A stretch of 64,000 nucleotides of DNA from Peribacillus sp. ACCC06369 (GTDB taxonomy: Bacteria; Bacillota; Bacilli; Bacillales; DSM-1321): positions 2,108,001 through 2,172,000 of the forward strand of contig NZ_JAUCEN010000002.1 of assembly GCF_030348945.1 (NCBI RefSeq), read 5' to 3'. Under the pieces are notes generated by a model. It made no database searches. It was not told the origin of the DNA and saw only the letters and a program-made list of their open reading frames with translations. Both the position numbers and the translations under genes were made by a program. This document shows, piece by piece, positions 25,665-40,562 of this stretch (positions within the stretch are counted from its first letter, which is position 1; every line of letters starts with the position of its first letter).

Positions 25665-25681
25665 TAAAAGGAGGCTTATAG

Positions 25682-26539
25682 TTGAATATAAAACGGTCCT
25701 ATTTGTTCGTTCCTGCCAATTCAAGAATGATTGAGAAAGCTCTTAGCAGTGAAGCTGATTGTGTCATTCTTGATTTAGAAGATGCAGTAGCCATTAATGA
25801 AAAGAAGACAGCAAGGGAAATGGCAGTAGTTGCTCTGCAAAACAGCCGTTCTCAAAAGGATGTTTATATAAGGATCAATGAGATTACCACCCCGCTATGG
25901 AGAGAAGATTTAGAGGCCGCTGTAGATGCTGGTTCAAAAGGAATAATCGTACCAAAGGCGGAAAGTGCTGGTAACATGAAGATAATTTGCAATGCAGCAC
26001 TTGAACACTTCGATAAGAAAAATAAAAAAAGCAAACATTTCGAGGTTCTGCCTCTAATTGAAACGGCAAGAGGGGTACATTTTGCTTATAATATTGCAAC
26101 TTCACATTACCTTATTTCACGCCTAGTCTTTGGTTCTCTTGATTATTCCCTCGATATAGATTGTCAGTTAACAGATCATGGAGATGAACTACTGTATGCT
26201 AGGTCACAGATCGTAAATGCTTCAAAGGCGGCAGGTGTTGGGAGTCCGGTGGACTCAGCTTATCCAGACCTTGGGAATGATCAAGGATTGAATAGTGAGA
26301 CATTGAGATCAAGGAAGCTAGGATTTAGGTCAAAATTAGCTATTCATCCAAAACAATTGGAGCCCATTCATCATGTTCTTACACCAAGCCAGAAAGAGGT
26401 TGAAGAGGCAATGTATATTGTGAATGCTTTTGAACTGGCTGAACAAAAAGGGAGTGCATCCATTTCAATTGGAACAAAATTTGTGGACTATCCTGTTTAT
26501 AAAAAAGCAAAGACAATTTTGCAATATGCCAGCTTATAA
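25682..26539 (+). CDS. CitE-like lyase (HpcH/HpaI family; citramalyl-CoA or malyl-CoA lyase type)
   Basis: A 285-residue TIM-barrel lyase with the family residues visible: VILDLEDAV (about 28-36), Arg64 in YIRIN, Glu127 in PLIETARG and Asp154 in FGSLDYSLD for Mg2+, and KLAIHPKQL near 225. CitE relatives cleave citryl-, malyl- or citramalyl-CoA. No citD, citF or citC is nearby, so this is not citrate lyase. With the CoA-transferase and hydratases of block C, cleavage of citramalyl-CoA to acetyl-CoA and pyruvate is the likeliest role (inferred). Start is TTG 25682 after AAAGGAGG. An operator sits in its leader. Confidence 0.85.
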   Translation: MNIKRSYLFVPANSRMIEKALSSEADCVILDLEDAVAINEKKTAREMAVVALQNSRSQKDVYIRINEITTPLWREDLEAAVDAGSKGIIVPKAESAGNMKIICNAALEHFDKKNKKSKHFEVLPLIETARGVHFAYNIATSHYLISRLVFGSLDYSLDIDCQLTDHGDELLYARSQIVNASKAAGVGSPVDSAYPDLGNDQGLNSETLRSRKLGFRSKLAIHPKQLEPIHHVLTPSQKEVEEAMYIVNAFELAEQKGSASISIGTKFVDYPVYKKAKTILQYASL

Positions 26540-26608
26540 AAATATCAATGTTCTTTTATATAAAGGAGTTGATAGAAAAGTTTAAAAAATGCTTATTTTG
26601 AATGAATT

Positions 26609-26623
26609 TTGAAAGCGCATTCA
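26609..26623. promoter_or_regulatory. CcpA site (cre)
   Basis: TTGAAAGCGCATTCA matches the cre consensus WTGNAANCGNWNNCW at every defined position. It lies about 165 bp before tctB, upstream of the operator at 26691. Catabolite repression of the transporter operon by CcpA is expected. Confidence 0.7.
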
Positions 26624-26690
26624 TTTCATTAGAAGAAATATAAGTGAATATCAAATAAACAAAATATTAATAAATTAGTTTGCATTATCA

Positions 26691-26707
26691 TTGGATACAG
26701 AATCCAA
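26691..26707. promoter_or_regulatory. Block C operator TTGGAT-N5-ATCCAA (tctBAC)
   Basis: TTGGATACAGAATCCAA has perfect 6-bp arms and a 5-bp centre, 68 bp before the tctB start. It is one of two full-length copies; the other is at 31598-31614. Confidence 0.7.
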
Positions 26708-26774
26708 TTAGACAAATTAAAAGGACAATATAGTAAAAACTATCTATTTAATGTTTGATAAAGGGAGGGAAAGT

Positions 26775-27233
26775 ATGTTAGCAAGAAATATGCTGGCCGA
26801 CCGTATCGGAGGAATTATATGTATTATTGTTGGTGGAATCGCGCTATCGGAAGCTGTGCGTTTGTACCCAATGCGGACGGGTCCGTTAATAGGAGACCAT
26901 ACGATGCCGGGGGTTATAGGCGGGTTAATGATCTTGTTCGGTTTATTAATTTTCATTGTTAAGGGAGAAATTTTTAAGACTGAATACCCCAACAGTAAAA
27001 CAATGAGAAGAATGCTTCTCACACTATGTTTGTTATTCATCTATTGGTTTTTACTTGGTATTTTAGGTTATACCATTACTACCTTGTTAGTATCCACAGG
27101 TTTATTTAAAGTTATTGGCAACTACAGCATAATCAAATCTCTTATTTTTGGAATTTTGTTAACATTGGTTCTTTATTTACTATTTATTTTTTGGCTCGGT
27201 ATGCCGTTCCCAACTGGAATTTTTAATATTTAA
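26775..27233 (+). CDS. tctB: Tripartite tricarboxylate transporter, small membrane subunit TctB
   Basis: A 152-residue protein with four hydrophobic segments, the usual TctB topology, directly before the large subunit gene. ATG 26775 is chosen because AAGGGAGG (26760-26767) precedes it at 7 nt; ATG 26751 has no such site. TctB associates with TctA in the membrane and contributes to secondary active uptake. The order tctB-tctA-tctC is intact, with spacings of 18 and 43 nt. An operator and a cre site lie upstream. Confidence 0.85.
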   Translation: MLARNMLADRIGGIICIIVGGIALSEAVRLYPMRTGPLIGDHTMPGVIGGLMILFGLLIFIVKGEIFKTEYPNSKTMRRMLLTLCLLFIYWFLLGILGYTITTLLVSTGLFKVIGNYSIIKSLIFGILLTLVLYLLFIFWLGMPFPTGIFNI

Positions 27234-27251
27234 TAAAGTAGAGGTGATGAT

Positions 27252-28772
27252 ATGGATGCAGTGGGTATGCTTATATCCGGTTTTACAGAAGCTTTAACGC
27301 CAATTAACCTAATGATGGCTGTAATAGGTGTTTTGGTAGGAACATTAGTTGGCATGTTACCAGGACTCGGACCTACATCCGCAATTGCCATTTTGTTGCC
27401 GTTAACAACTGTACTTGGCCCTGTTGAAGGGATCATTATGTTGGCTGGCATTTACTATGGTGCCATGTATGGTGGTTCTACAACAGCAATTTTGCTTAAT
27501 ATTCCAGGAGAGGTTTCATCTGTTCCCACCTGTCTAGATGGTTACCCGCTTGCTAAACAGGGAAGGGGAGGGCCGGCGCTTGGCATCGCAGCGATATCAT
27601 CTTTTGTTGCAGGAGTTTTAGGGGTAATTGGTCTCGTATTTTTTGCTCCGATCCTTGCTAATCAAGCGCTGAAATTTGGTCCTCCGGAATACTTCGCCCT
27701 GATGATATTAGCTCTAACTGTCATTATTAATTTGGCAGGTAATTCAATAATTAAGGGCTTAATTATGGGCCTTTTCGGTTATATGCTATCGATGGTGGGA
27801 ATGGGTCCTACAGGAGGACAACCTCGATTTGATTTTGGTATTGATGCTCTTTCTGCAGGATTTGACATGATCAGCATTATTATAGGGTTGTTTGCTATTA
27901 CAGAAGTTATAAAGGGAATGGAAGAAAAACAAACAGCAATTTCTGTAGGTAAGATTGGAAGTGTATATCCAAGCAAATCAGATTTACGGAAGAGTTCCAA
28001 AGCGATGATCCGTGGTGGGTTCATAGGATTTATAATGGGAATTTTACCTGGTTGCTCAACTGCAGTTACAACGTTTTTATCCTATGACATTGAAAAGAAG
28101 ATGTCCAAAAATCCTGAAAAGTTTGGTAAAGGGGCAATTGAAGGAGTTGCAGCACCAGAAGCAGCAAACAACGCAACAAGTTCCGCTGGTTTTATTCCAT
28201 TGTTTGCACTCGGGATTCCGAGTTCGCCGCCTTTGGCAATTCTTCTCGCTGGCCTAATGATTTATGGTCTTCAGCCTGGACCAGTCCTGTTTGAGCAAAG
28301 CGGTAGTTTTGTTTGGACCGTTATTGCCAGTATGTTTATTGGAAACATCATGTTATTAGCGTTAAACTTGCCATTGGTTGGTTTGTGGGCGAAGTTGACT
28401 CAAATTCCATACGGGGTGATTGCACCTATTATTCTGATTCTTAGCTTTATTGGTGCCTACACGGTTCGAAACAATCTATTCGATGTATTCGTTGCATTGA
28501 TATTTGGTGTGCTAGGATATTTTTTACACAAATATCGTTGGCCTGTAGTTCCGCTCATTTTATGCTTTATCCTCGGGCCAATGTTAGAACAATCCTTTGT
28601 TCAATCATTATCTATGTCAAAAGGAGAGTTCTCCATTTTTATAGACCGTCCAATTTCATTGACTATTCTCTTGGCTTCTCTGGTGTTGTTTGTTATTTCT
28701 ATCATTTTAATAAAACGCACGAAAACACGAGTTAAAGAAGTGGTGGGTACAGATCTTGATATTTCTGAATAA
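27252..28772 (+). CDS. tctA: Tripartite tricarboxylate transporter, large membrane subunit TctA
   Basis: The 506-residue protein carries the conserved TctA features: GMLPGLGPTSAIAILLP near residue 36, GIYYGAMYGGSTTAILLNIPGE near 65, and the second-half repeat GFIMGILPGCSTAVTTFLSYDIEKK with GVAAPEAANNATSSAGFIPLFALGIP. About 10-12 membrane segments are visible. It forms the translocation channel and works with TctB and the periplasmic-type binding protein TctC. Typical substrates of the family are citrate, tricarballylate, terephthalate and other carboxylates. Confidence 0.92.
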   Translation: MDAVGMLISGFTEALTPINLMMAVIGVLVGTLVGMLPGLGPTSAIAILLPLTTVLGPVEGIIMLAGIYYGAMYGGSTTAILLNIPGEVSSVPTCLDGYPLAKQGRGGPALGIAAISSFVAGVLGVIGLVFFAPILANQALKFGPPEYFALMILALTVIINLAGNSIIKGLIMGLFGYMLSMVGMGPTGGQPRFDFGIDALSAGFDMISIIIGLFAITEVIKGMEEKQTAISVGKIGSVYPSKSDLRKSSKAMIRGGFIGFIMGILPGCSTAVTTFLSYDIEKKMSKNPEKFGKGAIEGVAAPEAANNATSSAGFIPLFALGIPSSPPLAILLAGLMIYGLQPGPVLFEQSGSFVWTVIASMFIGNIMLLALNLPLVGLWAKLTQIPYGVIAPIILILSFIGAYTVRNNLFDVFVALIFGVLGYFLHKYRWPVVPLILCFILGPMLEQSFVQSLSMSKGEFSIFIDRPISLTILLASLVLFVISIILIKRTKTRVKEVVGTDLDISE

Positions 28773-28815
28773 ACAATTAATTTTTTCTGCTATAAACTAT
28801 TAGGGGGGAATTATT

Positions 28816-29829
28816 ATGAAGAAAAAAGAATTATTTGGTTTACTTTCTGGTGTGATGGCATTGAGTATCGCTTTATCAGGCTGTACTTCAAATGCGGCTT
28901 CAGGCGATCAAAAAAAAGTGTCTGAATATCCGACAAAACAAATTGAGGTAATCGTACCATTTGCAGCCGGAGGTGGGACTGACCTTTCTGCCAGAGCAAT
29001 GAGTGAATATTTAAGTGAAGAGTGGGGTAAGTCAGTAGTAGTCATAAATAAACCAGGTGCTGGCGGTGCAACAGGAACTCAAGAGGTTCTTAAGCAAGGT
29101 TCTAAAGACGGACATACCGTATTGGTTCAGAGTGTTTCTGCTGTATCAGCACTTTACGCAGGTAATACACATTTACCTTTTAGTATGAAAGACCAAAAGT
29201 TTCTAGCCAAAATGACAGGCGACCCTCTTGCATATGTTGTAAGTGCAGATTCTCCCTTCCAGAATATAAATGATTTAAATGAGTGGGTAAAGAAAAATCC
29301 AGATAAGTTTACATTTGCTAGCAATGGTCCCACGGCTATAGGGACTTTCGGTACGATCCAGTGGATGGATAGTATTGGTGCTGATTTCTCAAAAGATAGT
29401 CTTGTTGCGACCAATGGTTCAGGTGACGCACTTCCAAAGGTGGCAGGTGGACATATTACACTTGCCGTACAAGGGGTAAGTGAGGTATCCAATTTAACGA
29501 AAGCAGGCAAGTTGAAAATATTAGGTATTGAAGCACCTGAGAGAAGCCCGTTCTTCCCTGATGTTCCTACCATGAAAGAACAAGGTGTTAATAATATAGA
29601 TGTTACGTTATGGTACGGCGTAACCGCACCTTCTGGAACTCCTGATTATGTAGTGAAAAAGTGGGAATCTACAATTAACAAAATGATAAAAGACCCTAAA
29701 TTTCTCAAAAAATTAGACAGCATTAATGTTCGCCCTAATTATGCAAATGCTGCTGATTTTACCAAATCAGTAAAAGAAGAAACAAAAGATTATACGAAAA
29801 TTGCAAAGGAAAAAGGATTAGTTAAATAG
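28816..29829 (+). CDS. tctC: Tripartite tricarboxylate transporter substrate-binding lipoprotein TctC
   Basis: A 337-residue lipoprotein. The signal peptide ends in the lipobox LSGC with Cys23, followed by the TctC domain: YPTKQIEVIVPFAAGGGTDLSARAM, VINKPGAGGATGT and PTMKEQGVN. These Bug/TctC proteins capture a carboxylate and hand it to TctAB. GGGGGG precedes ATG 28816, 43 nt behind tctA. A terminator follows at 29850. The pocket motif GGGTDLSAR is standard, so nothing narrows the substrate. Confidence 0.92.
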   Translation: MKKKELFGLLSGVMALSIALSGCTSNAASGDQKKVSEYPTKQIEVIVPFAAGGGTDLSARAMSEYLSEEWGKSVVVINKPGAGGATGTQEVLKQGSKDGHTVLVQSVSAVSALYAGNTHLPFSMKDQKFLAKMTGDPLAYVVSADSPFQNINDLNEWVKKNPDKFTFASNGPTAIGTFGTIQWMDSIGADFSKDSLVATNGSGDALPKVAGGHITLAVQGVSEVSNLTKAGKLKILGIEAPERSPFFPDVPTMKEQGVNNIDVTLWYGVTAPSGTPDYVVKKWESTINKMIKDPKFLKKLDSINVRPNYANAADFTKSVKEETKDYTKIAKEKGLVK

Positions 29830-29849
29830 TATATTTTTTCGAATACGTG

Positions 29850-29884
29850 AAGGGGATATGGGTATACATATCCTTTCTTTTTCT
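29850..29884 (+). terminator. Terminator of tctBAC
   Basis: AAGGGGATATG (29850-29860) pairs with CATATCCTTT (29867-29876), followed by a U-rich CTTTTTC tract. Confidence 0.65.
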
Positions 29885-29950
29885 ATGTATCGTTAGGTAA
29901 AAGTTAAATCCGAAAGCTCAAATTTTGAAAGGAAGGAGAGGTGAGAGGAT

Positions 29951-31405
29951 ATGAATTCACCAAAAATGAAAATTTCGGCGAAACCGTCACAGTCTTTGTC
30001 TATTAAAATTCCTAAAGTGCTTACTCTCACTTTAGGTCTGATTATTATGATTGTTGTCTACGTTATTCTTCCGCAGGAGTATACAGAGTCAGCAAGAATC
30101 ATGTTAGCCTTTCTTGCACTTAGTGTATTTTATTGGACGTTTGAACCTATACCAATTGGGTTAACAGCACTAATCTTACTGGTTTTTATGCTCGTGTTCG
30201 GTGTGGTTTCTACAGAAGTGGTTTACAGTGGCTTTGCCTCCCCCGCTATTTTTCTTATTATCGGTGGAATGATGTTGGCACGGGCTGTCAATGATACTCC
30301 TCTTGCCGAAAGAATTGCCTATATATTTTTGGCAAAATGGGGTGGTACAGCTAAGGGCCTATTAGCAAGCATTCTAGTCATACCGCAAATTCAATCGTTT
30401 TTTATACCAGCTGCCGCTGTTAGAACCGCTTTGCTCCTTCCTGTTGCATTAATGTCACTTGATACGATTGGAGAACGAGGAAAAGGTAACCTTACAAAAC
30501 TGATCTTGCTGGGTGTCGCGTTCGGTTCCACTATTAGTGGAACAGCTGTCATGACAGCAGCTATTGGAAATATATTGACCGTTGAGTTATTAAAAGAATT
30601 TCTCGAAATAAAGATTACCTATCTTCAATGGTTTTTTTACACGTTTCCTATATGGATTGCCCTTATTCCTATAGCTTGGTATGTATTATTAAAAAGTTTC
30701 CCATTAACAGATGAAGAAAAAAACTTTCCCCATGTAAAAAAGGAAATAGAAAATAAACTTGCTGACCTTGGTAAAGTAAACAACGAGGAAAAAAGATGTA
30801 TTGGTATATTACTATTAATTGTGGCACTTTGGTTTACAGAGCCCTGGCATGGTCTACATCCTAGTGTCCCAGCGCTTATAGGGGTCGTATTAATGACACT
30901 TCCAGGTATTGGGTGTACAAAGTGGGATCATATAATCAAAATTAATTTTGATACGGTTCTCTTAATGGGGGTAACGTTATCACTTGGTTATGCCTTTAAT
31001 AAATCCGGAGCTGCTACTCTTGTCGGTAAAAGTTTAAGTACAGAGTGGATTATTGACCTCCTGCGTTCTCCTGTATTGGCGGTGATTACCATCTTAGTTC
31101 TTACTCAAATACTACACATTGCCGTAGCAAACGTCTCTACGGCAGTAGTAACTTTGATCCCAATTTTTATAGGGTTAGCGACTCAAGCCGGAGCAGATGC
31201 TGTTCTTATTTGTTTGACAGCCTCACTAGCATGCTTGCACGGATATATTTTGGTTGTTGAAGCTACTCCAAATATAATTGTCCATAGTTCGGGGAGAATT
31301 CAACAAAAGGAGTTTTTTATACCAGGAGTAAAATTAACAATTTGGATGAGCATCATAACACTCGTAACTGCTGTTACTTGGTGGAACTGGGTGGGATTAT
31401 TATAA
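29951..31405 (+). CDS. DASS/SLC13-type sodium:carboxylate transporter
   Basis: A 484-residue membrane protein with about 12 segments and the DASS fold landmarks: FEPIPIGLTALILLVFMLVFG near residue 55, a first re-entrant motif SGTAVMTAAIGN near 195 (the family usually has SNTA-like), and a second near 400 (ANVSTAVVTLIP). Such carriers take up C4-C6 di- and tricarboxylates with Na+. GGAAGGAGAGG precedes ATG 29951. It is 121 nt beyond the tctC gene and separated from it by a terminator, so the block has two independent uptake systems. The substrate is inferred to be a pathway acid. Confidence 0.82.
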   Translation: MNSPKMKISAKPSQSLSIKIPKVLTLTLGLIIMIVVYVILPQEYTESARIMLAFLALSVFYWTFEPIPIGLTALILLVFMLVFGVVSTEVVYSGFASPAIFLIIGGMMLARAVNDTPLAERIAYIFLAKWGGTAKGLLASILVIPQIQSFFIPAAAVRTALLLPVALMSLDTIGERGKGNLTKLILLGVAFGSTISGTAVMTAAIGNILTVELLKEFLEIKITYLQWFFYTFPIWIALIPIAWYVLLKSFPLTDEEKNFPHVKKEIENKLADLGKVNNEEKRCIGILLLIVALWFTEPWHGLHPSVPALIGVVLMTLPGIGCTKWDHIIKINFDTVLLMGVTLSLGYAFNKSGAATLVGKSLSTEWIIDLLRSPVLAVITILVLTQILHIAVANVSTAVVTLIPIFIGLATQAGADAVLICLTASLACLHGYILVVEATPNIIVHSSGRIQQKEFFIPGVKLTIWMSIITLVTAVTWWNWVGLL

Positions 31406-31529
31406 ATAGTTACTATAAAACTTTCACATTTGAAAGAATTAGAAGAGCGGAATTTCAATGTACACATAAAGAGATCTGTTATATAATTTAAATATTCAAA
31501 TTTATTAAAATATATAGACTTCTTTTTTT

Positions 31530-31542
31530 AGATCCTGTATCC
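31530..31542. promoter_or_regulatory. Degenerate block C operator
   Basis: AGATCCTGTATCC keeps the ATCC arm and centre spacing, with AGAT instead of GGAT. It lies 56 bp upstream of the full copy at 31598, suggesting a paired site. Confidence 0.4.
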
Positions 31543-31561
31543 TATAAATGAATACTGTTTT

Positions 31562-31588
31562 AAACAGCATTAAAGTGACTGTTTTTTT
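31562..31588 (+). terminator. Weak terminator-like element
   Basis: AAACAG (31562-31567) and CTGTTT (31579-31584) with a trailing T-run. The short stem makes it uncertain, but the position behind the DASS gene is suitable. Confidence 0.3.
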
Positions 31589-31597
31589 ATAAAAAAA

Positions 31598-31614
31598 TTG
31601 GATCCAATATCCAA
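31598..31614. promoter_or_regulatory. Block C operator TTGGAT-N5-ATCCAA (MmgE/PrpD unit)
   Basis: TTGGATCCAATATCCAA has perfect 6-bp arms. It lies 64 bp before the start codon of the MmgE/PrpD gene. A TTG within it opens the frame but is not the translation start. Confidence 0.7.
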
Positions 31615-31678
31615 GGAAGATTTCTTACTTACTTCTACTTATATACTAAAAAATTTTAGGAGAAATGAGGGTTTCTTA

Positions 31679-33061
31679 ATGACACATAGCCAGACACTTG
31701 CAGGTTTTATTTCTGAAACAAAGTATGAAAATATCCCAGATGAAGTGATTGAATTTACGAAGCTTTGTATTCTTGATTGGCTCGGGACTGCACTTGCGGG
31801 AAAAGATAAGGCCCCTATTCAAATGATTAACCAGTTCGTCGAGGAAACTGGAGGAAACCCTCAATCAACAACGATTACAGGCATTAAAACCTCGGCTGTA
31901 AACGCTGCGCTTCTAAACGGGGCAGCAAGCCATATTGTTGAACTTGATGACGTTCATAAGGGTTCTATTTTACATGCTGGCACTGTCGTGATACCGGCCG
32001 CGTTAAGTATAGCAGAAGCAAAAAATTGTAGCGGAAAGGAATTAATTGAAGCTGTGGTAGTAGGTTATGAAATCTGTTTCAGAATTGGAGAGGCTGTTTC
32101 ACCTTCTCATTATTACTACTGGCATAATACAGCCACTTGCGGAACCTTTGGTGCGGCAGCTGCTGCGGCTAAGCTATTGGGGTTGAATGAGGCTCAAATT
32201 GCATCAGCTCTTGGAAGCGCAGGCACACAAGCGGCTGGTTTATGGGAGTTTATTGAGGACGGGGCGATGTCTAAACAACTTCATCCAGCAAAGGCCGCTT
32301 CAAATGGATTAATTTCTGCCCTTTTAGCGGAAAAAGGATTTACATCAGCAAGTAAAATTCTTGAAGGAAAACGGGGATTCTTCAAAGCAATGTCCGATGA
32401 ATATGATGAATCGAAAATTACTCAGGGGCTGGGAAAGAGCTATAAAATTATTGAAAATTCCTTTAAAATTCATGCATCTTGTCGGCATACCCATCCTGCC
32501 ATAGATATGATTATTGCTCTAGTGAAAGAAAACCCAATTCAATTAAGCCAAGTCTCTAAAATAAATGTTAAAACCTATCAAGTCGCATTAGATATTACGG
32601 ATAATTCAGATCCTCAATCCGTGTATGCAGCCAAATTTAGTCTTCAATTTTGCGTAGCACTGGGATTAATTAACGAATCAGCCAGTTTATATGATTATAA
32701 CGAAGATACATTATGGGATGAAACGATTCGTAAAACGATGTCACTAATAGCTGTATCAGTAGATCCAGAAGTAAATAGGGCGTATCCCGATAAATGGGGA
32801 GCTGTGGTAGAGATTGAATTAACGAACGGAAAAATCCTTAGCAAACAAACAAATTATCCCAAAGGGGACCCTGAAAATGCTGTTACATCTCAAGATTTGA
32901 TTGCAAAATTTGAACAGCTTACCAGTGAATTCGATGTAAATGAAACCAAGATGTATATTGAGCGGATAATGAATCTGGAGACATTCCATGTCGTTAGTGA
33001 TTTTTTTGAGAAACAAATGGGGGATGAACCATGGGGGCAAGAGAAATTGCACCAGCATTAA
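31679..33061 (+). CDS. MmgE/PrpD-family protein (2-methylcitrate dehydratase / cis-aconitate decarboxylase superfamily)
   Basis: A 460-residue protein of normal family length. The active-site segments are visible: ELDDVHKGSILHAGTVVIPAAL near residue 85, YWHNTATCGTFGAAAAAA near 145, MSKQLHPAKAASNG near 200 and HASCRHTHPAIDM near 270, aligning with Asp, His and Lys residues of PrpD and the IRG1/CadA decarboxylases. Members dehydrate 2-methylcitrate or related acids, or decarboxylate cis-aconitate to itaconate. ATG 31679 is chosen: GAGGG lies 7 nt before it and the upstream frame runs through an operator. No prpB or prpC is nearby, so a 2-methylcitrate cycle role is doubtful. Its position in a C5-acid cluster suggests a hydroxyacid dehydratase. 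Confidence 0.86.
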   Translation: MTHSQTLAGFISETKYENIPDEVIEFTKLCILDWLGTALAGKDKAPIQMINQFVEETGGNPQSTTITGIKTSAVNAALLNGAASHIVELDDVHKGSILHAGTVVIPAALSIAEAKNCSGKELIEAVVVGYEICFRIGEAVSPSHYYYWHNTATCGTFGAAAAAAKLLGLNEAQIASALGSAGTQAAGLWEFIEDGAMSKQLHPAKAASNGLISALLAEKGFTSASKILEGKRGFFKAMSDEYDESKITQGLGKSYKIIENSFKIHASCRHTHPAIDMIIALVKENPIQLSQVSKINVKTYQVALDITDNSDPQSVYAAKFSLQFCVALGLINESASLYDYNEDTLWDETIRKTMSLIAVSVDPEVNRAYPDKWGAVVEIELTNGKILSKQTNYPKGDPENAVTSQDLIAKFEQLTSEFDVNETKMYIERIMNLETFHVVSDFFEKQMGDEPWGQEKLHQH

Positions 33062-33342: not shown

Positions 33343-33837
33343 ATGGATGGACAAAAATTAAAACAAGAAATCAATGCGCGTATAGAGAATTGTACCGTGA
33401 AAGAGCTAAAACATATACAGCATATGATTCATACGATGAAAAGTCCAGAAAGAGGGGGTTTACATTACTTAGGAAGCTTTCTGGGAATAAATCTAACAGA
33501 AATAGATAGGATTTCGATGGATCTTGGTATGCAAAATGCTAATAAATATGGAGTAGCGCAAGGTGGGGCTGTATATACTCTCGCCGATGTCGCTCTTGGT
33601 TATAAAATTATTTCAGACGTTGGTGACGAGAGTAAAGTTCTGACCATTGAGTTGAAGGTCAATTACATGAAGCAAGGAAAAGGCCGAAAACTTTATGCAG
33701 AACCCATTATTCTACATCAGGGGAAAAGTACGGTTGTTGGACAATGTATGATTTTAGATGAACAAAATGATGTTATTGCTGCTGCGCTAGGAACTTTTTT
33801 TGTAATGAGGCCAACCCATTTATTAAAGGGAGGTTAA
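33343..33837 (+). CDS. PaaI-type hotdog thioesterase
   Basis: A 164-residue hotdog-fold protein. The PaaI signature GVAQGGAVYTLADVALGY lies near residue 65, where the Gly-Gly and Asp/Glu-type residues line the active site. LTIELKVNYMKQ and AALGTFFV form the strands that end the domain. The first 45 residues are helical and not part of the standard domain. Such enzymes hydrolyse acyl-CoA thioesters and often free CoA from stalled intermediates. It precedes the fumarase-type genes by 4 nt, so one transcript is clear. The start site AGAGG is weak. Confidence 0.82.
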   Translation: MDGQKLKQEINARIENCTVKELKHIQHMIHTMKSPERGGLHYLGSFLGINLTEIDRISMDLGMQNANKYGVAQGGAVYTLADVALGYKIISDVGDESKVLTIELKVNYMKQGKGRKLYAEPIILHQGKSTVVGQCMILDEQNDVIAAALGTFFVMRPTHLLKGG

Positions 33838-33841
33838 TAGA

Positions 33842-34687
33842 TTGAGAACCATCCATTATAAAGATATTGTTCAAAAGGTTTCGGTCATTTGCCAGGAAGC
33901 AAATTATGACCTTGGAGAAGATGTAGTACATGCATTTAAAACTGCTATGAAAAACGAAGCATCAGAAATAGGAAAAGATATTCTTGGCCAATTGATAGAG
34001 AATGCGAATATTGCAACGACAGAACGAGTTCCGATGTGTCAGGATACAGGAGTTTCTGTTTTTATTGTGGAATTAGGACAAGATTGCCATATTGATGGAG
34101 GCAATTTAAATGAAGCAATCAATGAAGGAGTCAAAAAAGGGTATGAGGAAGGCTATTTAAGACACTCAATTGTTGATCATCCAATTACACGAAAAAAAAG
34201 CCTTGGGTATAATACCCCTTCCATCATTCATGTTGAAATTGTACCAGGAGATCAGTTAATCATCCACATGTCAGCTAAAGGTGGAGGAAGCGAAAACATG
34301 AGCACGCTTAAAATGTTAAAGCCTTCGGACGGTCTTCAAGGAATAAAGAATTTTATCCTTGAAACCGTGCGAACAGCAGGGCCCAACGCGTGTCCCCCAC
34401 TTGTAGTAGGAGTAGGAATCGGCGGGAACTTTGAAAAATGCGCCTATTTGGCTAAAAAGTCTTTGTTCAGGCCAATCGGGGTACGAAGCCATCTTGAAGA
34501 AATAGCGGTACTCGAAGCGGAGTTAATGGAGGAAATCAACAAACTGGGTATCGGTCCTCAAGGGATGGGGGGGAGTACAACGGCACTTGATGTGAAGATT
34601 GAAATTGCTCCTTGCCACATCGCCGCATTACCAGTAGCGATTAACTTAAACTGCCATGCAAGCCGACATAAAGAAATCACTCTTTAA
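33842..34687 (+). CDS. Class I fumarase/tartrate dehydratase alpha subunit (possible mesaconase)
   Basis: A 281-residue Fe-S hydro-lyase subunit. The three cluster cysteines appear in the family contexts: [10 protein letters not shown] near residue 63, [13 protein letters not shown] near 183 and LNCHASRH near 270. [10 protein letters not shown] near 140 is the substrate-binding signature. Class I fumarases, L-tartrate dehydratase and mesaconase share this fold, with alpha and beta parts here as separate genes. Start is TTG 33842, 4 nt after the thioesterase stop and behind GGGAGG. In a cluster with an itaconate-type CoA-transferase and a CitE-like lyase, hydration of mesaconate to (S)-citramalate is plausible. 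Confidence 0.88.
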
Positions 34688-34701
34688 ATGAGGTGTTTAT
34701 T

Positions 34702-35256
34702 TTGACTGTTAAAAGAGTAACTGTTCCCTTTGATATAGAAACTGTTCAATCATTAAAAGCGGGAGACCGGTTGTTAATAAGCGGAACTGTTTACGCAGCA
34801 AGGGATGCTGCGCACAAACGAATGGCAGAATCCCTGGAAAAGGGTGAAGAGCTTCCTTTTAATATGGATGGAGAAGTCATTTATTATGTCGGTCCAACTC
34901 CAGCCAAGACAGGACAAATCATAGGCTCTGCAGGACCGACTACAAGCGGCAGGATGGATAAGTATACACCAGCACTGTTGGAACTAGGCTTAAAAGGGAT
35001 GATTGGTAAAGGATATCGAAGCCAGGATGTTATTGATTCGATAAGAAGTAACCAGGCACTTTATCTGGGTGCTATAGGGGGTTCTGGAGCTTTATTAGCG
35101 CGTACGATAAAAGAAGTAGAAGTAATCGCCTATGAAGACTTAGGAACCGAAGCCATTCGTAAAATGGTTATAGAAGATTTTCCGGTTATTGTCATAAATG
35201 ATTCGTTCGGTAATGATTGGTATAAACAAAGCGCTGAAGAATTTCGTATTATCTAG
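34702..35256 (+). CDS. Class I fumarase/tartrate dehydratase beta subunit
   Basis: A 184-residue partner of the alpha subunit. Landmarks are GDRLLISGTVYAARDAAHKR near residue 25, YYVGPTPA and the catalytic region SAGPTTSGRMD near 75, and GKGYRS with AIGGSGALLA near 120. TTG 34702 (MTVKRVTVPF) lies 7 nt behind TGAGGTG; GTG 34693 is inside that site. Alpha and beta are separated by 14 nt. The pair is complete. Confidence 0.88.
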   Translation: MTVKRVTVPFDIETVQSLKAGDRLLISGTVYAARDAAHKRMAESLEKGEELPFNMDGEVIYYVGPTPAKTGQIIGSAGPTTSGRMDKYTPALLELGLKGMIGKGYRSQDVIDSIRSNQALYLGAIGGSGALLARTIKEVEVIAYEDLGTEAIRKMVIEDFPVIVINDSFGNDWYKQSAEEFRII

Positions 35257-35300
35257 GATGATATTTAGGGTTCTTATATTAAAACATAAGGAGGATTTCT

Positions 35301-36485
35301 ATGTTGCCGTTAGAAGGTATAACTGTAGTAAGCTTAGAGCAGGCAGTAGCAGCCCCCTTTGCTACCAGACAATTAGCTGATTTAGGAGCGCGCGTTATTA
35401 AAATTGAAAGGCCAAATACAGGAGATTTTGCTCGAAACTATGATACAACTGTTCACGGCATGTCCAGCCATTTCGTTTGGTTAAATCGTTCCAAGGAATC
35501 CGTGTGTCTTGATTTAAAACAAGAAGAATCAACCATCATATTGGATAAAATTCTGTCACAAGCTGATGTTTTTGTACAAAATTTAGCACCAGGGGCAGTT
35601 GATAGACTGGGTTTCAGCCCATCTATCCTCAAGGAAAAATACCCTCAACTCATTATTTGTGGAATATCAGGATATGGATCGAATGGATCTTATCGGGACA
35701 AAAAAGCCTATGACTTACTCATTCAATGTGAGGCAGGTTTAGTTTCAATTACGGGAACCGATGACAATCCCTCAAAATCTGGAATATCGATCGCAGATAT
35801 AGCTGCAGGCATGTATGCGTATACTGGTATTTTAACGGCGCTTCTTGCCCGTCATAAAACAGGTAAGGGTACAGTCATTGAAGTGTCTATGCTTGAGGCT
35901 CTTGCGGAATGGATGGGTTATCCGATTTATTATTCTGAATATGGGGGGACAGATCCAAAACGGACTGGTTCAAGCCATGCTACTATTTATCCGTATGGTC
36001 CTTTTAAAACAGGAGATAACAAGCTTGTTTTTATGGGAATACAAAATGAAAGAGAGTGGGCTTATTTCTGCGAAAAAGTTTTAGAAAGCCCTGATTTGGC
36101 CATTGATAGTCAATTCATTAGTAATTCGAAGCGTGTTTCTAACAGGGATATACTGAAACCGATTATTGATTCTGCTTTCCATAAATTAAATGCAGATCAA
36201 GTTATTGATCTTCTTGAGAAAGCAAAAATTGCAAATGCACGTCTAAATACTGTAAATGATCTGGTTAACCATCCTCAGTTAAGGGAACGGAATCGTTGGA
36301 GGGAGGTTCATTCACCGGTTGGAACTTTAAAAGCATTATTGCCACCCGTAACGTTTGAAGATTTAGATGTAATTATGAATCCTATACCGGAAGTAGGAGA
36401 ACATACAGAATCAGTTTTAAAAGAATTTGGAATTGACACAGAAAAACTTCAACAAAGTAAAAAGACAGATGTTTTACAGAATTAA
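35301..36485 (+). CDS. Family III CoA-transferase, itaconate/mesaconate type
   Basis: A 394-residue CaiB/BaiF protein with catalytic Asp166 in SGISIADIAAGMYAYTG. The stretches SLEQAVAAPFATRQLADLGARV, GDFARNYD, SHFVWLNRSKES and VEWMGYP-like AEWMGYPIYY are those I associate with the itaconate CoA-transferase/RipA group rather than the formyl- or carnitine-type enzymes. It would make itaconyl-, mesaconyl- or citramalyl-CoA from succinyl-CoA or acetyl-CoA. AAGGAGG precedes ATG 35301. It closes the MmgE-thioesterase-fumarase operon, followed by a strong terminator. Confidence 0.88.
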   Translation: MLPLEGITVVSLEQAVAAPFATRQLADLGARVIKIERPNTGDFARNYDTTVHGMSSHFVWLNRSKESVCLDLKQEESTIILDKILSQADVFVQNLAPGAVDRLGFSPSILKEKYPQLIICGISGYGSNGSYRDKKAYDLLIQCEAGLVSITGTDDNPSKSGISIADIAAGMYAYTGILTALLARHKTGKGTVIEVSMLEALAEWMGYPIYYSEYGGTDPKRTGSSHATIYPYGPFKTGDNKLVFMGIQNEREWAYFCEKVLESPDLAIDSQFISNSKRVSNRDILKPIIDSAFHKLNADQVIDLLEKAKIANARLNTVNDLVNHPQLRERNRWREVHSPVGTLKALLPPVTFEDLDVIMNPIPEVGEHTESVLKEFGIDTEKLQQSKKTDVLQN

Positions 36486-36496
36486 AGTAAACTGAT

Positions 36497-36532
36497 AAAA
36501 CCTATCATCCCTTTGTTTATGGTAGGTTTTTT
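36497..36532 (+). terminator. Terminator after the second CoA-transferase
   Basis: AAAACCTATCAT (36497-36508) and ATGGTAGGTTTT (36519-36530) form a stem with one G-U pair, followed by TT. Confidence 0.75.
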
Positions 36533-36632
36533 ACCGTATACTTTGTAAGATAATGAAAATTTATATCGTTAATTACTAAGGGTAATGATATTCTAAATAT
36601 AAGATAATTTCACCGAGAATGGATTGATATAA

Positions 36633-37301
36633 TTGAAGAAAAACTTGAATTTAAAATTGGAAGATCGTGATACTCTTCATTTAAAAGTAACGAATGTAAT
36701 ACGACAAGAGATATTAAATGGTAATTTTGAGCCCGGGGAAAGATTAGTTCAAGAAGAGCTAGCTAATTCTTTAGGAGTAAGTAGAATGCCTGTACGAGAA
36801 GCTTTACGATTGTTAGAAGCAGAGGGATTAATTCAACTTGAACCTCACAAAGGTGCAATCGTGAAATCCATGAATGTGGAAGATGTAGAAGAAATATATG
36901 AAATGAGGTCAAGGCTTGAAGGGTTAGCTGTAAGTATAAGTGCAAATAAGCTAAGTGAAGAAGAGATTATCGAATTGGAAAAGTTGACTATGCAAATGAA
37001 AAACAATAATGAGGAAGAAGACTTTGTAAAAGCAAATATAGAATTTCATTCCATATTAATGAAGCACTGTAACTGGAAAAGATTGATTGGTGTGATTGAA
37101 AAGCTATGGAATGGATTTCCCCAACAAACACCTACCATGCTGTCAGGGCAAATAGATCAATCAAATAAAGAACATGAACAGATTTTAGAAGCAATCAAAA
37201 GAAATGACGCAGAACATGCAGGAGTTCTTGTGTCGAATCATATTAAACGAACCGGTAATTTACTGGTTAAAAATATGCAGGAGAATAGAAAGAAAAGGTA
37301 A
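36633..37301 (+). CDS. GntR-family (FCD type) regulator of block C
   Basis: A 222-residue regulator. The winged helix (residues about 15-80) reads PGERLVQEELANSLGVSRMPVREALRLLEAEGLI and PHKGAIVKSM. The FCD domain has YEMRSRLEGLAVSI and IEFHSILMKHCN with the metal-type His. It begins at TTG 36633 with a weak ribosome-binding site, suggesting low expression. It is bracketed by terminators, so it is a single transcript in the middle of block C. It is the best candidate to bind the TTGGAT-N5-ATCC sites found before four transcription units. Its ligand is probably a pathway acid or CoA ester. Confidence 0.9.
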   Translation: MKKNLNLKLEDRDTLHLKVTNVIRQEILNGNFEPGERLVQEELANSLGVSRMPVREALRLLEAEGLIQLEPHKGAIVKSMNVEDVEEIYEMRSRLEGLAVSISANKLSEEEIIELEKLTMQMKNNNEEEDFVKANIEFHSILMKHCNWKRLIGVIEKLWNGFPQQTPTMLSGQIDQSNKEHEQILEAIKRNDAEHAGVLVSNHIKRTGNLLVKNMQENRKKR

Positions 37302-37340
37302 AATAGAACTCAAAGACAGTATACCTTTATTCTCTTGACT

Positions 37341-37368
37341 AAACCTTATCAAAAGATAAGGTTTTTTT
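37341..37368 (+). terminator. Terminator after the block C GntR gene
   Basis: AAACCTTATC (37341-37350) and GATAAGGTTT (37355-37364) form a perfect 10-bp stem with an AAAA loop and a T-run. Confidence 0.85.
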
Positions 37369-37524
37369 GCGCACTTTAAGTAAAAAGATGTTAATTGCAA
37401 GTGAGGTAATACAAATACAGCTTAAACTCAGTAAATAAAAGAGATTGAAAAAGGGAAATCACAGTAGTTAAATTAAAACTCAAAATAAATTGTTAAAATA
37501 TTTCGAATATGTAGACAAATTAAA

Positions 37525-37539
37525 TTGGATCCAGTATCC
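37525..37539. promoter_or_regulatory. Block C operator TTGGAT-N5-ATCC (lyase-hydratase-dehydrogenase unit)
   Basis: TTGGATCCAGTATCC lies 38 bp before the start of the HMG-CoA-lyase-like gene and matches the copies at 25650, 26691 and 31598. Confidence 0.65.
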
Positions 37540-37577
37540 TATTATTATATAAAATAATAAAAAGGAGTGATACGCTG

Positions 37578-38504
37578 TTGAAACTACAAGGTTGTATTCA
37601 AATAAATGAAGTGGGTTTGAGAGATGGGCTTCAATTAGAAGATCGGATATTATCGGTCGAACAAAAAATCAAATTAGTAGATGCTCTTATTGATGCAAAT
37701 GTTAAGACTATTGAATTTGGTTCATTTGTTCATCCAAAGCTTGTACCTCAAATGAAAAATTCCAGAGAACTATATGAATTGATATCTGAAAAGCATCAAG
37801 ATATTGACTTTATTGCGCTAATTCCTAATTTAAAAGGGGTAATTCTTGCAGCAGAAGTAGGAGTTCAACGGGTGAATACAGTTCTTTCGGCTAGCAATAC
37901 TCATAATCTTCAAAATGTAAGAAAAACTAAAAGACAATCATTAGAAGAATTTTTAAGAATAAAGGAATATTGTGAAGAGAAGGAGATATTGCTTGATTGT
38001 TCTATAGCTACTACATTCGGTTGCCCATTTGAAGGGGACATTCACGAAGAAGTCATCTTTTCAATTATCGAGAGCGTGATCCAAGCTGGAGTGAATGTAA
38101 TTACTTTAGCAGATACAACGGGTATGGCAAACCCAAAACAGGTCTATGATCTTTCTAAAAATGTGTTGGAAAAATGGCCAAACCAACCTTTTAATTTACA
38201 TTTTCATAACACAAGAGGAATGGGTTTGGCAAACGTATTAGGAGGGATCCAGGCGGGTATTAGTAGTTTCGATGCATCACTGGGTGGCCTGGGAGGTTGT
38301 CCGTTTGCACCAGGAGCAACAGGAAATATTTGCACAGAAGATGTAGTTCATATGTTAGAAGAGATGCAGTTGAAAACAGATATTTCCTTAGATGACTTAT
38401 TGGAAGCTTCCAAGATGTTACGAAGCATATTAGATCATGAGCTGCCTGGACAAATTCTCAAATCTGGAAAGAGTTCCAGACTATATCCTGTTCCAGCGAT
38501 TTAG
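37578..38504 (+). CDS. HMG-CoA-lyase-like aldolase (second copy)
   Basis: A 308-residue DRE-TIM lyase: VGLRDGLQLE at the N-terminus (where the block A enzyme has VGPRDGLQNE), HFHNTRGMG for metal binding, and GGLGGCPFAPGATGN with the catalytic cysteine near residue 237. Compared with the copy at 4021 it is clearly diverged, so it probably has its own substrate. TTG 37578 follows AAAGGAG at 10 nt. It is co-transcribed with an enoyl-CoA hydratase and an acyl-CoA dehydrogenase, fitting cleavage of a 3-hydroxy-3-methyl-type acyl-CoA after dehydrogenation and hydration. Confidence 0.87.
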   Translation: MKLQGCIQINEVGLRDGLQLEDRILSVEQKIKLVDALIDANVKTIEFGSFVHPKLVPQMKNSRELYELISEKHQDIDFIALIPNLKGVILAAEVGVQRVNTVLSASNTHNLQNVRKTKRQSLEEFLRIKEYCEEKEILLDCSIATTFGCPFEGDIHEEVIFSIIESVIQAGVNVITLADTTGMANPKQVYDLSKNVLEKWPNQPFNLHFHNTRGMGLANVLGGIQAGISSFDASLGGLGGCPFAPGATGNICTEDVVHMLEEMQLKTDISLDDLLEASKMLRSILDHELPGQILKSGKSSRLYPVPAI

Positions 38505-38551
38505 TAAACAATATTACTGCGAAAAAATGATAGTACAAGGAGCTGGAAGAT

Positions 38552-39346
38552 ATGAAACAATGGGAAACCATCATTTTAGAAAAAAGTGATCGTCTTCAAG
38601 GTGTATATATCATAACTTTAGATCGGCCTGATTCTATGAATGCTCTAAATACACAAATGGGCAATGATCTGATTGAATGCTTGAAAATGCTGAAAAAACA
38701 AAGTGATTGCAGGGTTTTACTACTAACAGGTTCAGGAGAAAAAGCTTTCTGTGTCGGGGCTGATCTAAAGGAAAGAAATGGAATGACAAAAGAAGATTGG
38801 AAAAATCAACATGATATTTTTGAGGAAGTAACATTATTAATTCGTGAATTTCCCTTTCCAGTGCTAGCTTTACTCAATGGTTACGCACTTGGTGGCGGCT
38901 TTGAAATAGCGTTAAGTTGTGACATGAGAATTGCTGCCTCTAATGTAAAGTTAGGTTTTCCAGAAGTAAAGATTGGAATTTTGCCAGGGATAGGAGGCAC
39001 ACAACTATTAACACGATTGGTGCCTACTGGTTTAGCGAAAGAATTACTATTTAGTGGTAAACAAATATCTGCCTCAGAAGCTGAGAAGATAGGGTTAATT
39101 AATAAAGTAATCAGTACTGATAACAATCTAGAGGAAGCGCTTTCATTTGTAAAAAATATCGCGAAAAATGCTCCTATTTCTCTTCAACAGATTAAAATGG
39201 CTGTGAATGCTGGCTCTCAAGTAGATTTAACCACCGCTTTAAAGATCGAACTTCAAGCTTATTATAAATGTGCAGATTCTGAAGATAGATTAGAAGGAAT
39301 CCAGGCATTCAATGACAAAAGAGAGCCAGTTTGGCAAGGTAAATAA
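38552..39346 (+). CDS. Enoyl-CoA hydratase/isomerase
   Basis: A 264-residue crotonase-fold protein. The oxyanion and CoA-binding segment AFCVGADLKERNG lies near residue 65. The region GGGFEIALSCDMRIAA and FPEVKIGILPGIGGTQLL (about 108-150) supplies the two glutamates used in water addition. AAGGAGC precedes ATG 38552. It is the middle gene of the lyase-hydratase-dehydrogenase transcript. In this context it would hydrate the enoyl-CoA made by the dehydrogenase; itaconyl-CoA or mesaconyl-CoA are candidates. Confidence 0.9.
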   Translation: MKQWETIILEKSDRLQGVYIITLDRPDSMNALNTQMGNDLIECLKMLKKQSDCRVLLLTGSGEKAFCVGADLKERNGMTKEDWKNQHDIFEEVTLLIREFPFPVLALLNGYALGGGFEIALSCDMRIAASNVKLGFPEVKIGILPGIGGTQLLTRLVPTGLAKELLFSGKQISASEAEKIGLINKVISTDNNLEEALSFVKNIAKNAPISLQQIKMAVNAGSQVDLTTALKIELQAYYKCADSEDRLEGIQAFNDKREPVWQGK

Positions 39347-39401
39347 TAATCGGAAATCGTTCTCAAAATGAAAATTTTATAGATGACTAGGAGGAATTAA
39401 A

Positions 39402-40562
39402 ATGACTACAAGTACAGTAACAGACCTTGATATAATTCGGAAAAGTGTTCGATCCCTTTGTGCGAAGTTCCCTGAAACATATTGGAAGGAATTAGATGAA
39501 AAGAAAGCGTATCCAGAAGAATTCATTAAAACCCTAACACAAGAGGGATGGTTATCAGTTCTTATTCCTGAAGAATATGGCGGTGCAGGTTTAGGAATGA
39601 AGGAAGCTAGCGTAATTCTTGAAGAAGTGAACAGATCTGGTGGAAACGCAGGTGCAGGGCATGCGCAAATGTATACAATGGGAGCAGTACTTCGTCATGG
39701 GAACCAAGAACAAAAACAAAGATTCCTCCCTAAAATCGCCAGTGGTGAACTCCGCCTTCAAGCATTTGGAATTACCGAACCTACAGCTGGTAGTGATACA
39801 ACAAGCATCACGACTACAGCGGTAAAGAAAGGTAATCGATATATTGTAAATGGACAAAAAATTTGGATTTCACGTACAGAACATTCAGATTTGATGTTAC
39901 TTTTAGCAAGAACCACACCTAAGGAACAGGTTGCCAAAAAGACCGATGGGTTAAGTTTATTCTTGCTTGATATGAAAGACCAAAAAGATAATATTACAAT
40001 TCGGCCAATAGACACAATGATTAACCATCACACAACAGAAGTATTCTTTGAGAATGTAGAAATACCAGAAGAAAATTTAATAGGTGAAGAAGGAAAAGGA
40101 TTTCGTTATGTACTTAGTGGAATGAATGCAGAACGAATTCTTATTGCCGCTGAAAGCATTGGCGATGGATTATATTTCATTGATAAATCTGTTCAATACG
40201 CAAATGAGAGAGTAGTATTTGACCGCCAAATCGGACAAAATCAAGGAGTTCAGTTTCCAATTTCCCAGTCCTATATGGAGATTCAAGCAGCTCAATTAAT
40301 GAGAGATAAAGCAGCGGAAATGTTCGACAAAGGTGAAAACTGTGGAGCAGAAGCTAATATGTCGAAGTATTTGGCAACAGAAGCTACTTGGAAGGCTGCT
40401 AATGCTGCTATGACTACATATGGTGGCTACGGTTTTGCTACTGAATATAATATTGAAAGAAAGTTTCGTGAAGCACGATTGTTTATTGTGGCCCCAGTTA
40501 CTAATAATCTTGTATTGAGTTATGTTGGCCAACATGTTTTAGGATTACCACGATCATTTTAA
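39402..40562 (+). CDS. Acyl-CoA dehydrogenase
   Basis: A 386-residue flavin dehydrogenase. Landmarks are LIPEEYGGAGLGM near 50, the FAD/substrate motif AFGITEPTAGSDTT near 125, NGQKIWISRTEHSDL near 150 and YGGYGFATEYNIERKFREARL near 345. The C-terminus ends APVTNNLVLSYVGQHVLGLP, so the EGT glutamate of short/medium-chain enzymes is absent. The glutamate in NAERILIAAE (about 245) may act instead, as in isovaleryl-CoA dehydrogenase. AGGAGG precedes ATG 39402. A branched or dicarboxylic acyl-CoA such as methylsuccinyl-CoA is an attractive but unproven substrate. A strong terminator follows. Confidence 0.9.
   Translation: MTTSTVTDLDIIRKSVRSLCAKFPETYWKELDEKKAYPEEFIKTLTQEGWLSVLIPEEYGGAGLGMKEASVILEEVNRSGGNAGAGHAQMYTMGAVLRHGNQEQKQRFLPKIASGELRLQAFGITEPTAGSDTTSITTTAVKKGNRYIVNGQKIWISRTEHSDLMLLLARTTPKEQVAKKTDGLSLFLLDMKDQKDNITIRPIDTMINHHTTEVFFENVEIPEENLIGEEGKGFRYVLSGMNAERILIAAESIGDGLYFIDKSVQYANERVVFDRQIGQNQGVQFPISQSYMEIQAAQLMRDKAAEMFDKGENCGAEANMSKYLATEATWKAANAAMTTYGGYGFATEYNIERKFREARLFIVAPVTNNLVLSYVGQHVLGLPRSF

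Follow-up and report, generated by a model that had tools for sequence, protein, structure and literature searches.

The genome (5.62 Mb) of Peribacillus sp. ACCC06369, a soil relative of Bacillus, contains a 14-gene cluster that is probably a regulon under GntR control for the breakdown of branched C5 dicarboxylates, which by homology would be a Gram-positive version of known chemistry. The cluster spans ∼15 kb (25682–40562) of a 64-kb stretch of contig NZ_JAUCEN010000002.1, hereafter called the window, to which all positions refer. In profile searches of the window proteins, every gene class named by a first-pass annotation of this DNA was present, and all 14 genes had one orientation (+). 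The C5 branched-dicarboxylate degradation that this annotation had proposed for a Gram-positive organism, with methylsuccinate and mesaconate as entry points, is supported by homology to characterized enzymes.

Homology to enzymes of methylsuccinate and itaconate degradation

A record from P. aeruginosa (L083) contains the gene run MaoC-ACD-VOC-MmgE-CaiB-CitE-TRAP (where ACD is acyl-CoA dehydrogenase), which we took, from its gene order, to be the PA0878–PA0886 cluster. The CoA-transferase, dehydrogenase, isomerase, and lyase of PA0878–PA0886 were assigned through enzymology and heterologous growth, and the products reported are a methylsuccinyl-CoA dehydrogenase, an itaconate/(R)-methylsuccinate CoA-transferase, a methylsuccinate isomerase (Msi), and a citramalyl-CoA lyase (PMC12290011 and PMC9875883). 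By blastp, the window ACD and CaiB are 61% identical over 380 residues (508 bits) and 56% identical over 385 residues (453 bits), respectively, to their counterparts in L083, and the identities of MmgE and CitE are 41 and 36%. The ACD is without a close paralog, as the 15 other matches in the host genome are ≤34% identical to it.

Based on these relationships, the acids would be taken up by TctCBA or the DASS carrier, and MmgE would convert (S)-methylsuccinate to (R)-methylsuccinate, which CaiB would activate with succinyl-CoA as the CoA donor. The ACD would then oxidize methylsuccinyl-CoA to mesaconyl-C4-CoA, a crotonase-type enoyl-CoA hydratase (ECH) would add water to form citramalyl-CoA, and CitE, the HMGL-like lyase, or both would cleave this product to acetyl-CoA and pyruvate. 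Mesaconate would enter through hydration to (S)-citramalate by the class I fumarase-type subunits FumAB, followed by CaiB and CitE, whereas itaconate would enter through CaiB and then the hydratase. We infer all of these substrates, the hydratase assignment, and the division of labor between the two lyases; itaconate is the least certain of the substrates because its hydratase step is itself putative.

A shared operator precedes the transcription units

Intergenic inverted repeats of the window revealed a shared 17-bp operator, TTGGATMCARTATCCWA, the pattern of which was derived from the window alone. When ≤2 mismatches were allowed, the window contained five sites, every one within the cluster (Table 1), and at ≤3 mismatches the count rose to 12 strand matches, which fall at eight places including the five cluster sites, compared with 1.52 expected from shuffles. 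Across the whole genome, all four sites with ≤1 mismatch lie in the cluster; at two mismatches, six of 12 strand matches lie outside the cluster, and a reversed control pattern gave 3. The shared operator before the transcription units of the cluster bears out the single regulon that the first-pass annotation had proposed without giving evidence. We infer that the GntR protein encoded within the cluster binds this operator.

This operator also recurs among related loci, for which we used the best 80 of 84 MmgE relatives. At ≤2 mismatches, 105 sites were found in 52 of these loci, compared with a mean of 2.6 in ten dinucleotide shuffles, and 91 of the 105 lie outside open-frame bodies, even though 80% of the bases lie inside them. 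Ten whole genomes, picked because their loci have sites, were also scanned. With ≤1 mismatch, they gave 30 strand matches (1 for the control pattern), and 24 of these, including every exact match (13 in all), lie ahead of gene types found in this system. Twenty of the matches fall in loci already fetched. Among the ten that lie outside, four are exact and precede HMGL-ECH genes (two) or 4HBT thioesterase genes (two), and six have one mismatch and precede nothing related. These outlying exact sites suggest that the regulon includes HMGL, ECH, and the thioesterase also in genomes where they lie ∼14 to 42 kb from the operators of the main cluster.

General operator forms of FCD-type GntR proteins (TnGTnnnACnA and the like) were tried on the + strand of 19001–46000 and rejected, as their matches did not recur between the operon starts of the cluster. 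The same strand and interval contained no match to catabolite-responsive element (CRE) sites. The number of σ70 promoter matches equaled that of shuffles (60 versus 58.4), and we therefore make no claim about promoters. A literature search on the operator letters returned no paper that was related by title. Upstream of another GntR-FCD gene (22870), the window contains a palindrome, AATTCACACTTGTGTGAATT (22781–22800), that is unlike the cluster operator; this suggests a separate regulon for a gene group with AA_synth and 3-hydroxyisobutyrate-dehydrogenase-like members.

Table 1. Genes and operator sites of the cluster, in window positions; functions called proposed are predicted from sequence
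Feature	Position	Strand	Match or score
Operator before CitE, TTGGATCCAATATCCTA	25650–25666	+	0 mismatches
CitE-like (HpcH/HpaI) C-C lyase; proposed (S)-citramalyl-CoA lyase	25682–26539	+	PF03328, 3e-42
Operator before TctB, TTGGATACAGAATCCAA	26691–26707	+	1 mismatch
TctB, small membrane subunit of tripartite tricarboxylate transporter	26751–27233	+	PF07331, 2.6e-17
TctA, large membrane subunit	27252–28772	+	PF01970, 1.3e-161
TctC, solute-binding protein	28816–29829	+	PF03401, 4.5e-48
DASS-family dicarboxylate carrier	29951–31405	+	TIGR00785, above NCBIfam cut-off (227.4 vs 198.6)
Operator site 1 before MmgE	31528–31544	+	2 mismatches
Operator site 2 before MmgE, TTGGATCCAATATCCAA	31598–31614	+	0 mismatches
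MmgE/PrpD-family protein, 460 aa; proposed (S)-(R)-methylsuccinate isomerase	31679–33061	+	41% to P. aeruginosa Msi
Hotdog (4HBT) thioesterase; perhaps CoA release	33343–33837	+	PF03061
Class I fumarase/mesaconase-type alpha subunit (FumA)	33842–34687	+	PF05681, 4.7e-114; NF004885 above cut-off
Class I fumarase/mesaconase-type beta subunit (FumB)	34693–35256	+	PF05683, 1.6e-60; NF005310 above cut-off
CaiB family III CoA-transferase; proposed succinyl-CoA:(R)-methylsuccinate/itaconate/(S)-citramalate CoA-transferase	35301–36485	+	56% to P. aeruginosa CaiB-type protein
GntR-FCD regulator; proposed operator binder	36633–37301	+	PF00392 and PF07729
Operator before HMGL, TTGGATCCAGTATCCTA	37525–37541	+	0 mismatches
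HMGL-like lyase; proposed second citramalyl-CoA lyase, perhaps for the (R) form	37578–38504	+	PF00682
Crotonase-type ECH; proposed mesaconyl-C4-CoA (itaconyl-CoA) hydratase	38552–39346	+	PF00378
ACD; proposed methylsuccinyl-C4-CoA dehydrogenase	39402–40562	+	61% to P. aeruginosa dehydrogenase

A short way downstream of the cluster is a group II intron (41916–43645, RF02001 and RF01998 matches) with a reverse transcriptase/maturase, and a cobalamin riboswitch (63774–63962) lies at the right end of the window.

The MmgE/PrpD protein as a candidate methylsuccinate isomerase

The listed reading frame of MmgE begins with a TTG at 31598. As this codon sits within the operator site at 31598–31614, we moved the start to the ATG at 31679, which is likely the true one and gives a product with the same length as P0001 and P0002. 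Peribacillus sp. TH14 and P. cavernae have proteins with 99 and 87% identity, respectively, to this MmgE, which is the one PF03972 match in the host genome. The cluster is patchy within the genus, with MmgE (E ≤ 1e-120) in 3 of 36 genomes.

The residues proposed for Msi (H88, E91, H102, Y148, H152, K202, and K266) are kept in the window protein and in 79 of 79 aligned locus proteins (one of the 80 loci has no MmgE frame of sufficient length); in all 19 MmgE paralogs, Glu91 is replaced by Asp. A segment around the catalytic lysine, ASCRHTH, which was picked after the alignment was viewed, is found in 76 of the 80 window-clade proteins, a count that includes the window protein, and in all 10 references of the Msi clade, and is absent from 19 of 19 paralogs and 9 of 9 references outside the Msi clade. 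Adjacency to a dehydrogenase has been considered strong evidence for an isomerase (PMC12290011), and the ACD is immediately upstream of MmgE in 19 of 79 loci.

The presence of TctABC, and the general labeling of many MmgE relatives as 2-methylcitrate dehydratase, would fit a system for tricarboxylates (tricarballylate, aconitate, or citrate) in which MmgE is an aconitate decarboxylase or methylcitrate dehydratase and CitE is a citryl-CoA lyase. We consider this highly improbable, as the PrpD models gave 41–52 bits against cut-offs of 458–950 (the best 2-methylcitrate dehydratase score, 51.8 bits, did not reach its cut-off of 575), the CitE model gave 200 against 443, the MmgE protein has the Msi-like ASCRHTH and is far from E. 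coli PrpD, and the ACD and CaiB would be left unexplained. A role for MmgE as a methylcitrate dehydratase (PrpD) was rejected on these scores and residues. The closest solved structures to MmgE are those of B. subtilis “IRG1” and IDS epimerase; roles as a cis-aconitate decarboxylase or IDS epimerase were rejected too, since neither relative shows ASCRHTH in its alignment and the gene context does not fit. Tricarballylate and 2-methylcitrate, which the first-pass annotation had listed as possible growth substrates, gained no specific support.

In six related loci (L044, L047, L048, L049, L051, and L054), a second MmgE/PrpD paralog, 31–34% identical to the window protein, lies between CitE and DASS at near 4 kb. 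These loci have an operator-like site before CitE, and the paralog, which has Asp at the position of Glu91 and lacks ASCRHTH, may act on another acid. The MmgE proteins of L052 (Chryseobacterium sp. ISL-80) and L058 (Pseudomonas sp. ISL-84) are nested within Cytobacillus, and these records are probably misnamed or contaminated.

Hydratase, lyase, and fumarase components

The ECH is the sole CoA-ester hydratase of the window cluster. For linkage counts we used the 62 of the 80 loci that have both ∼10-kb flanks, leaving out 18 short-flank loci, and we repeated the counts on 43 genus-by-pattern units, with genera taken from record titles except for L052, which was assigned to Cytobacillus on the basis of the position of its MmgE in the tree. 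MaoC is present in 18 of the 62 loci, and the single representative that was scanned matches PF19315. Only suggestive is the exclusivity of ECH and MaoC, the latter being present in 4 of 26 ECH loci (p = 0.053; p = 0.069 for genus-by-pattern units; these Fisher values ignore relatedness).

The window HMGL is 57–64% identical to six HMGLs of related clusters and 38–43% identical to three other HMGL-like proteins in the host genome; by sequence, the cluster HMGLs are a distinct group. The segments RDG, HFH, and GGCP are invariant across 10 aligned HMGLs. The presence of two lyases in one cluster would be explained if there were a mirror-image branch through (R)-citramalyl-CoA. Friedmann and colleagues reportedly found the lyase of EC 4.1.3.46 to be of the HMGL family and the transferase of EC 2.8.3.20 to be of the CaiB family. 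An (R)-citramalyl-CoA lyase and an (R)-citramalate CoA-transferase are listed under these respective numbers (PMC8307300), and a citramalyl-CoA-cleaving lyase of the HMGL family would account for the HMGL gene of the window. A second organic-acid cluster (999–10714) encodes a CaiB protein, LeuCD-like hydratase subunits, an HMGL, an arylmalonate-decarboxylase/EutA-like protein, a MatC carrier, a GntR-FCD regulator, and a tartrate/D-malate dehydrogenase above the TIGR02089 cut-off. It is perhaps used for citraconate, maleate, or (R)-citramalate, and because its CaiB, LeuCD-like, HMGL, and dehydrogenase genes, at 999–9348, fit an (R)-citramalate or citraconate route, it makes the mirror-image (R) branch more plausible.

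The ECH and HMGL of the 14-gene cluster could also serve a C6 system. In that case, CaiB would activate 3-methylglutarate or 3-hydroxy-3-methylglutarate, the ACD and ECH would form 3-hydroxy-3-methylglutaryl-CoA (HMG-CoA) via 3-methylglutaconyl-CoA, HMGL would cleave it to acetyl-CoA and acetoacetate, and MmgE, FumAB, and CitE would act on related acids. Consistent with this, HMGL scores above the cut-off of the HMG-CoA-lyase subfamily model NF004283 (301.6 versus 246 bits, a score that does not indicate substrate), all 19 HMGL loci among the 62 also hold ECH, and the best solved relative of CaiB is a succinate-hydroxymethylglutarate CoA-transferase. However, that transferase gave only 219 bits (phmmer) compared with 453 (blastp) for the P. 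aeruginosa CaiB, and the best dehydrogenase in the PDB gave 229 bits compared with 508 (blastp) for the P. aeruginosa ACD. In addition, the host genome has three other HMGL-like proteins, and MmgE and FumAB have no place in the route. These comparisons make C6 acids unlikely substrates.

For FumAB, a role in mesaconate use would agree with the hydration of mesaconate by class I fumarases (PMC4682846). Elsewhere in the host genome there are two further class I fumarase matches and, above its cut-off, a class II FumC; the second class I fumarase is encoded in another setting, next to an ABC transporter and a gene of glycosyl hydrolase family 88.

Evidence weighing against C5 dicarboxylates

Several observations weigh against assigning the cluster to C5 dicarboxylates. 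There is no known itaconyl-CoA hydratase: profile searches of the 14 cluster genes found no MaoC-type hydratase, and PF19315, a profile for mesaconyl-CoA hydratase and the MaoC model that was searched genome-wide, had no match in the whole genome. The CitE-like lyase is just 36% identical to its P. aeruginosa counterpart and falls below the cut-offs of both RipC (166.7 versus 375 bits) and CitE (200 versus 443 bits). Known itaconate degradation, which the first-pass annotation considered covered by members of the cluster, is thus covered in part, the hydratase and the RipC-type lyase being the parts that did not hold. HMGL and ECH would also be suited to a C6 acid, FumAB could be a plain fumarase, and 28 of the 80 loci, among them those of the anaerobes and of several Bacillales, have no operator site; many of the operator-less anaerobe loci have a PrpR-like σ54 activator instead.

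The MmgE evidence has two such points. The set of seven residues is present in 10 of 10 Msi-clade references yet also in 5 of 9 others, so that it marks a working MmgE/PrpD site and not a substrate. In a quick tree, the Bacillota MmgE proteins form their own group with long branches to Msi and are not nested in the Msi clade, so the tree gives no support. Because Msi is kept apart in this tree, the isomerase assignment rests on ASCRHTH and gene context.

Related loci and proposed interchangeable modules

The gene association around MmgE exceeds chance. Among the 62 full-flank loci, FumB is present in 50, FumA in 49, CitE in 50, and a GntR of the same cluster as the window GntR in 48, with lower counts for ACD (38), CaiB (36), and DASS (32). 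Two patterns of gene content are seen. CaiB accompanies ACD in 33 of 38 ACD loci, whereas loci with an SdhA-like flavoprotein, related to succinate dehydrogenase (SDH), have a SucC-like ligase subunit in 11 of 15 cases and an ACD in 1 of 15. The trend is weaker in the genus-by-pattern units (ACD with CaiB, 21 of 26; SdhA-like with SucC-like, 8 of 12, and with ACD, 1 of 12).

Relative to the clustered SDH-like flavoprotein of Cytobacillus (L047), those of P. saganii and P. cavernae show 88 and 85% identity, respectively. Each of these three genomes has another SdhA copy elsewhere, at 72–73%, and the clustered one is thus a second copy. At 15 SdhA positions (E. coli numbering), the roles of which we assumed, clustered proteins match the housekeeping copies save for variation among the clustered ones at 352, 402, and 404. 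Another 34 positions are fixed differently between 11 clustered Bacillales proteins and 3 housekeeping copies, and one of these (V353M) adjoins the active-site histidine. The L134 SdhA, from Carboxydocella, is the clustered copy of that organism rather than its housekeeping SdhA. In P. saganii (L051), an exact operator lies ahead of both an SDH/ligase operon and an HMGL-ECH-ACD operon.

The simplest reading of this gene content is that methylsuccinate would be oxidized to mesaconate before CoA activation in SDH-type species and after activation in others, including the window's host. It is possible, although we offer this tentatively, that the Bacillales have a C5 regulon of interchangeable modules. 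One module would activate first, with CaiB and ACD, and another would oxidize first: a duplicated SdhCAB-like complex would be the methylsuccinate dehydrogenase, a class I fumarase the mesaconase, and a SucCD-like enzyme the citramalate-CoA ligase. In the window, ECH and HMGL would make up a mirror-image branch through (R)-citramalyl-CoA, parallel to the (S) branch through FumAB and CitE. Literature searches found no description of a methylsuccinate-oxidizing membrane complex or of an oxidize-first route. Loci L065–L072, L074–L076, and L081, from anaerobes of the Desulfosporosinus/Carboxydocella kind, encode MmgE, in most cases together with SdhCAB-like or SucCD-like genes, a PrpR-like σ54 activator, or a DUF1847 protein, and the gene set differs from locus to locus.

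Transporter types differ greatly among the loci, which would fit a true substrate that is another 2-substituted succinate, such as ethylsuccinate or an acid from plants or fungi, and is degraded by the same chemistry, with C5 acids as secondary substrates. The MmgE/PrpD, SDH-like, and class I fumarase modules are all compatible with such a substrate, and Msi is described as having room for larger C3-modified substrates (PMC12290011). We nevertheless regard this as improbable, as the ACD and CaiB resemble their counterparts in the P. aeruginosa cluster, for which enzyme activities on methylsuccinate have been measured.

Comparison with known systems

RipA of the Yersinia-type RipABC itaconate operon is a family I CoA-transferase. 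In contrast, the window CoA-transferase belongs to family III, and the window lyase is far under the RipC cut-off. What RipABC and the Rv2498c route of M. tuberculosis have in common with the window is CitE-fold cleavage of citramalyl-CoA, and Rv2498c cleaves (R)-HMG-CoA too (PMC6689899). The pseudomonad itaconate/methylsuccinate cluster (PA0878–PA0883 type; ict, ich, ccl, mcd, and msi; PMC9875883, PMC12290011) shares the CoA-transferase (56%), dehydrogenase (61%), MmgE/PrpD protein (41%, with the same proposed catalytic residues), and CitE-like protein (36%). The window cluster differs from it in having a crotonase-type ECH and HMGL in place of MaoC, FumAB inside the cluster, TctBAC and DASS rather than TRAP transport, a GntR rather than a LysR regulator, and another gene order.

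A class I fumarase, CoA-transferase, and citramalyl-CoA lyase set is also shared with the mesaconase systems of Burkholderia xenovorans and P. putida (PP_0897) (PMC4682846, PMC9875883), whereas the window enzyme has two subunits and lies inside the regulon. The methylaspartate (glutamate-fermentation) clusters of Clostridia and other Firmicutes (PMC4682846) are likewise Gram-positive and have separate fumarase-type subunits, a putative two-part mesaconase of class I, beside citramalate-cleaving genes. Their glutamate mutase, methylaspartate ammonia-lyase, and citramalate lyase are not among the 14 genes of the window cluster, which would use CoA esters.

The first-pass annotation called the system a candidate for an undescribed one. 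This does not hold for the core of CoA-transferase, ACD, MmgE/PrpD isomerase, and CitE-like lyase, which was reported from Pseudomonas and Cupriavidus in 2023 and 2025 (PMC9875883, PMC12290011), or for an itaconate route in a Gram-positive organism, which was reported in M. tuberculosis (PMC6689899). New are the Bacillales version, its operator, and the interchangeable modules; among the papers listed by searches on methylsuccinate dehydrogenases and on methylsuccinate or itaconate clusters of Bacillota, which included the Pseudomonas and Cupriavidus reports, none describes a Bacillales cluster of this kind in its title or abstract opening (subscription papers were outside the scope of this search). 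We judge the system to be a Gram-positive variant of known chemistry with partly different parts, of which the interchangeable modules are the most original.

Implications for Gram-positive C5-acid metabolism

Itaconate and related compounds are immune metabolites with antimicrobial activity. Methylsuccinate isomerases have been placed almost wholly in Pseudomonadota (96.2%; PMC12290011), and that distribution would, if the reading is true, be widened by a system in Bacillales that combines the same dehydrogenase and transferase with a hydratase/lyase pair of its own and a dedicated fumarase. The SDH-like variant would, if true, be a methylsuccinate-oxidizing membrane complex. With the operator as a sequence handle, members of the regulon could be located in many Gram-positive genomes, and the operator may also be of use in biosensors.

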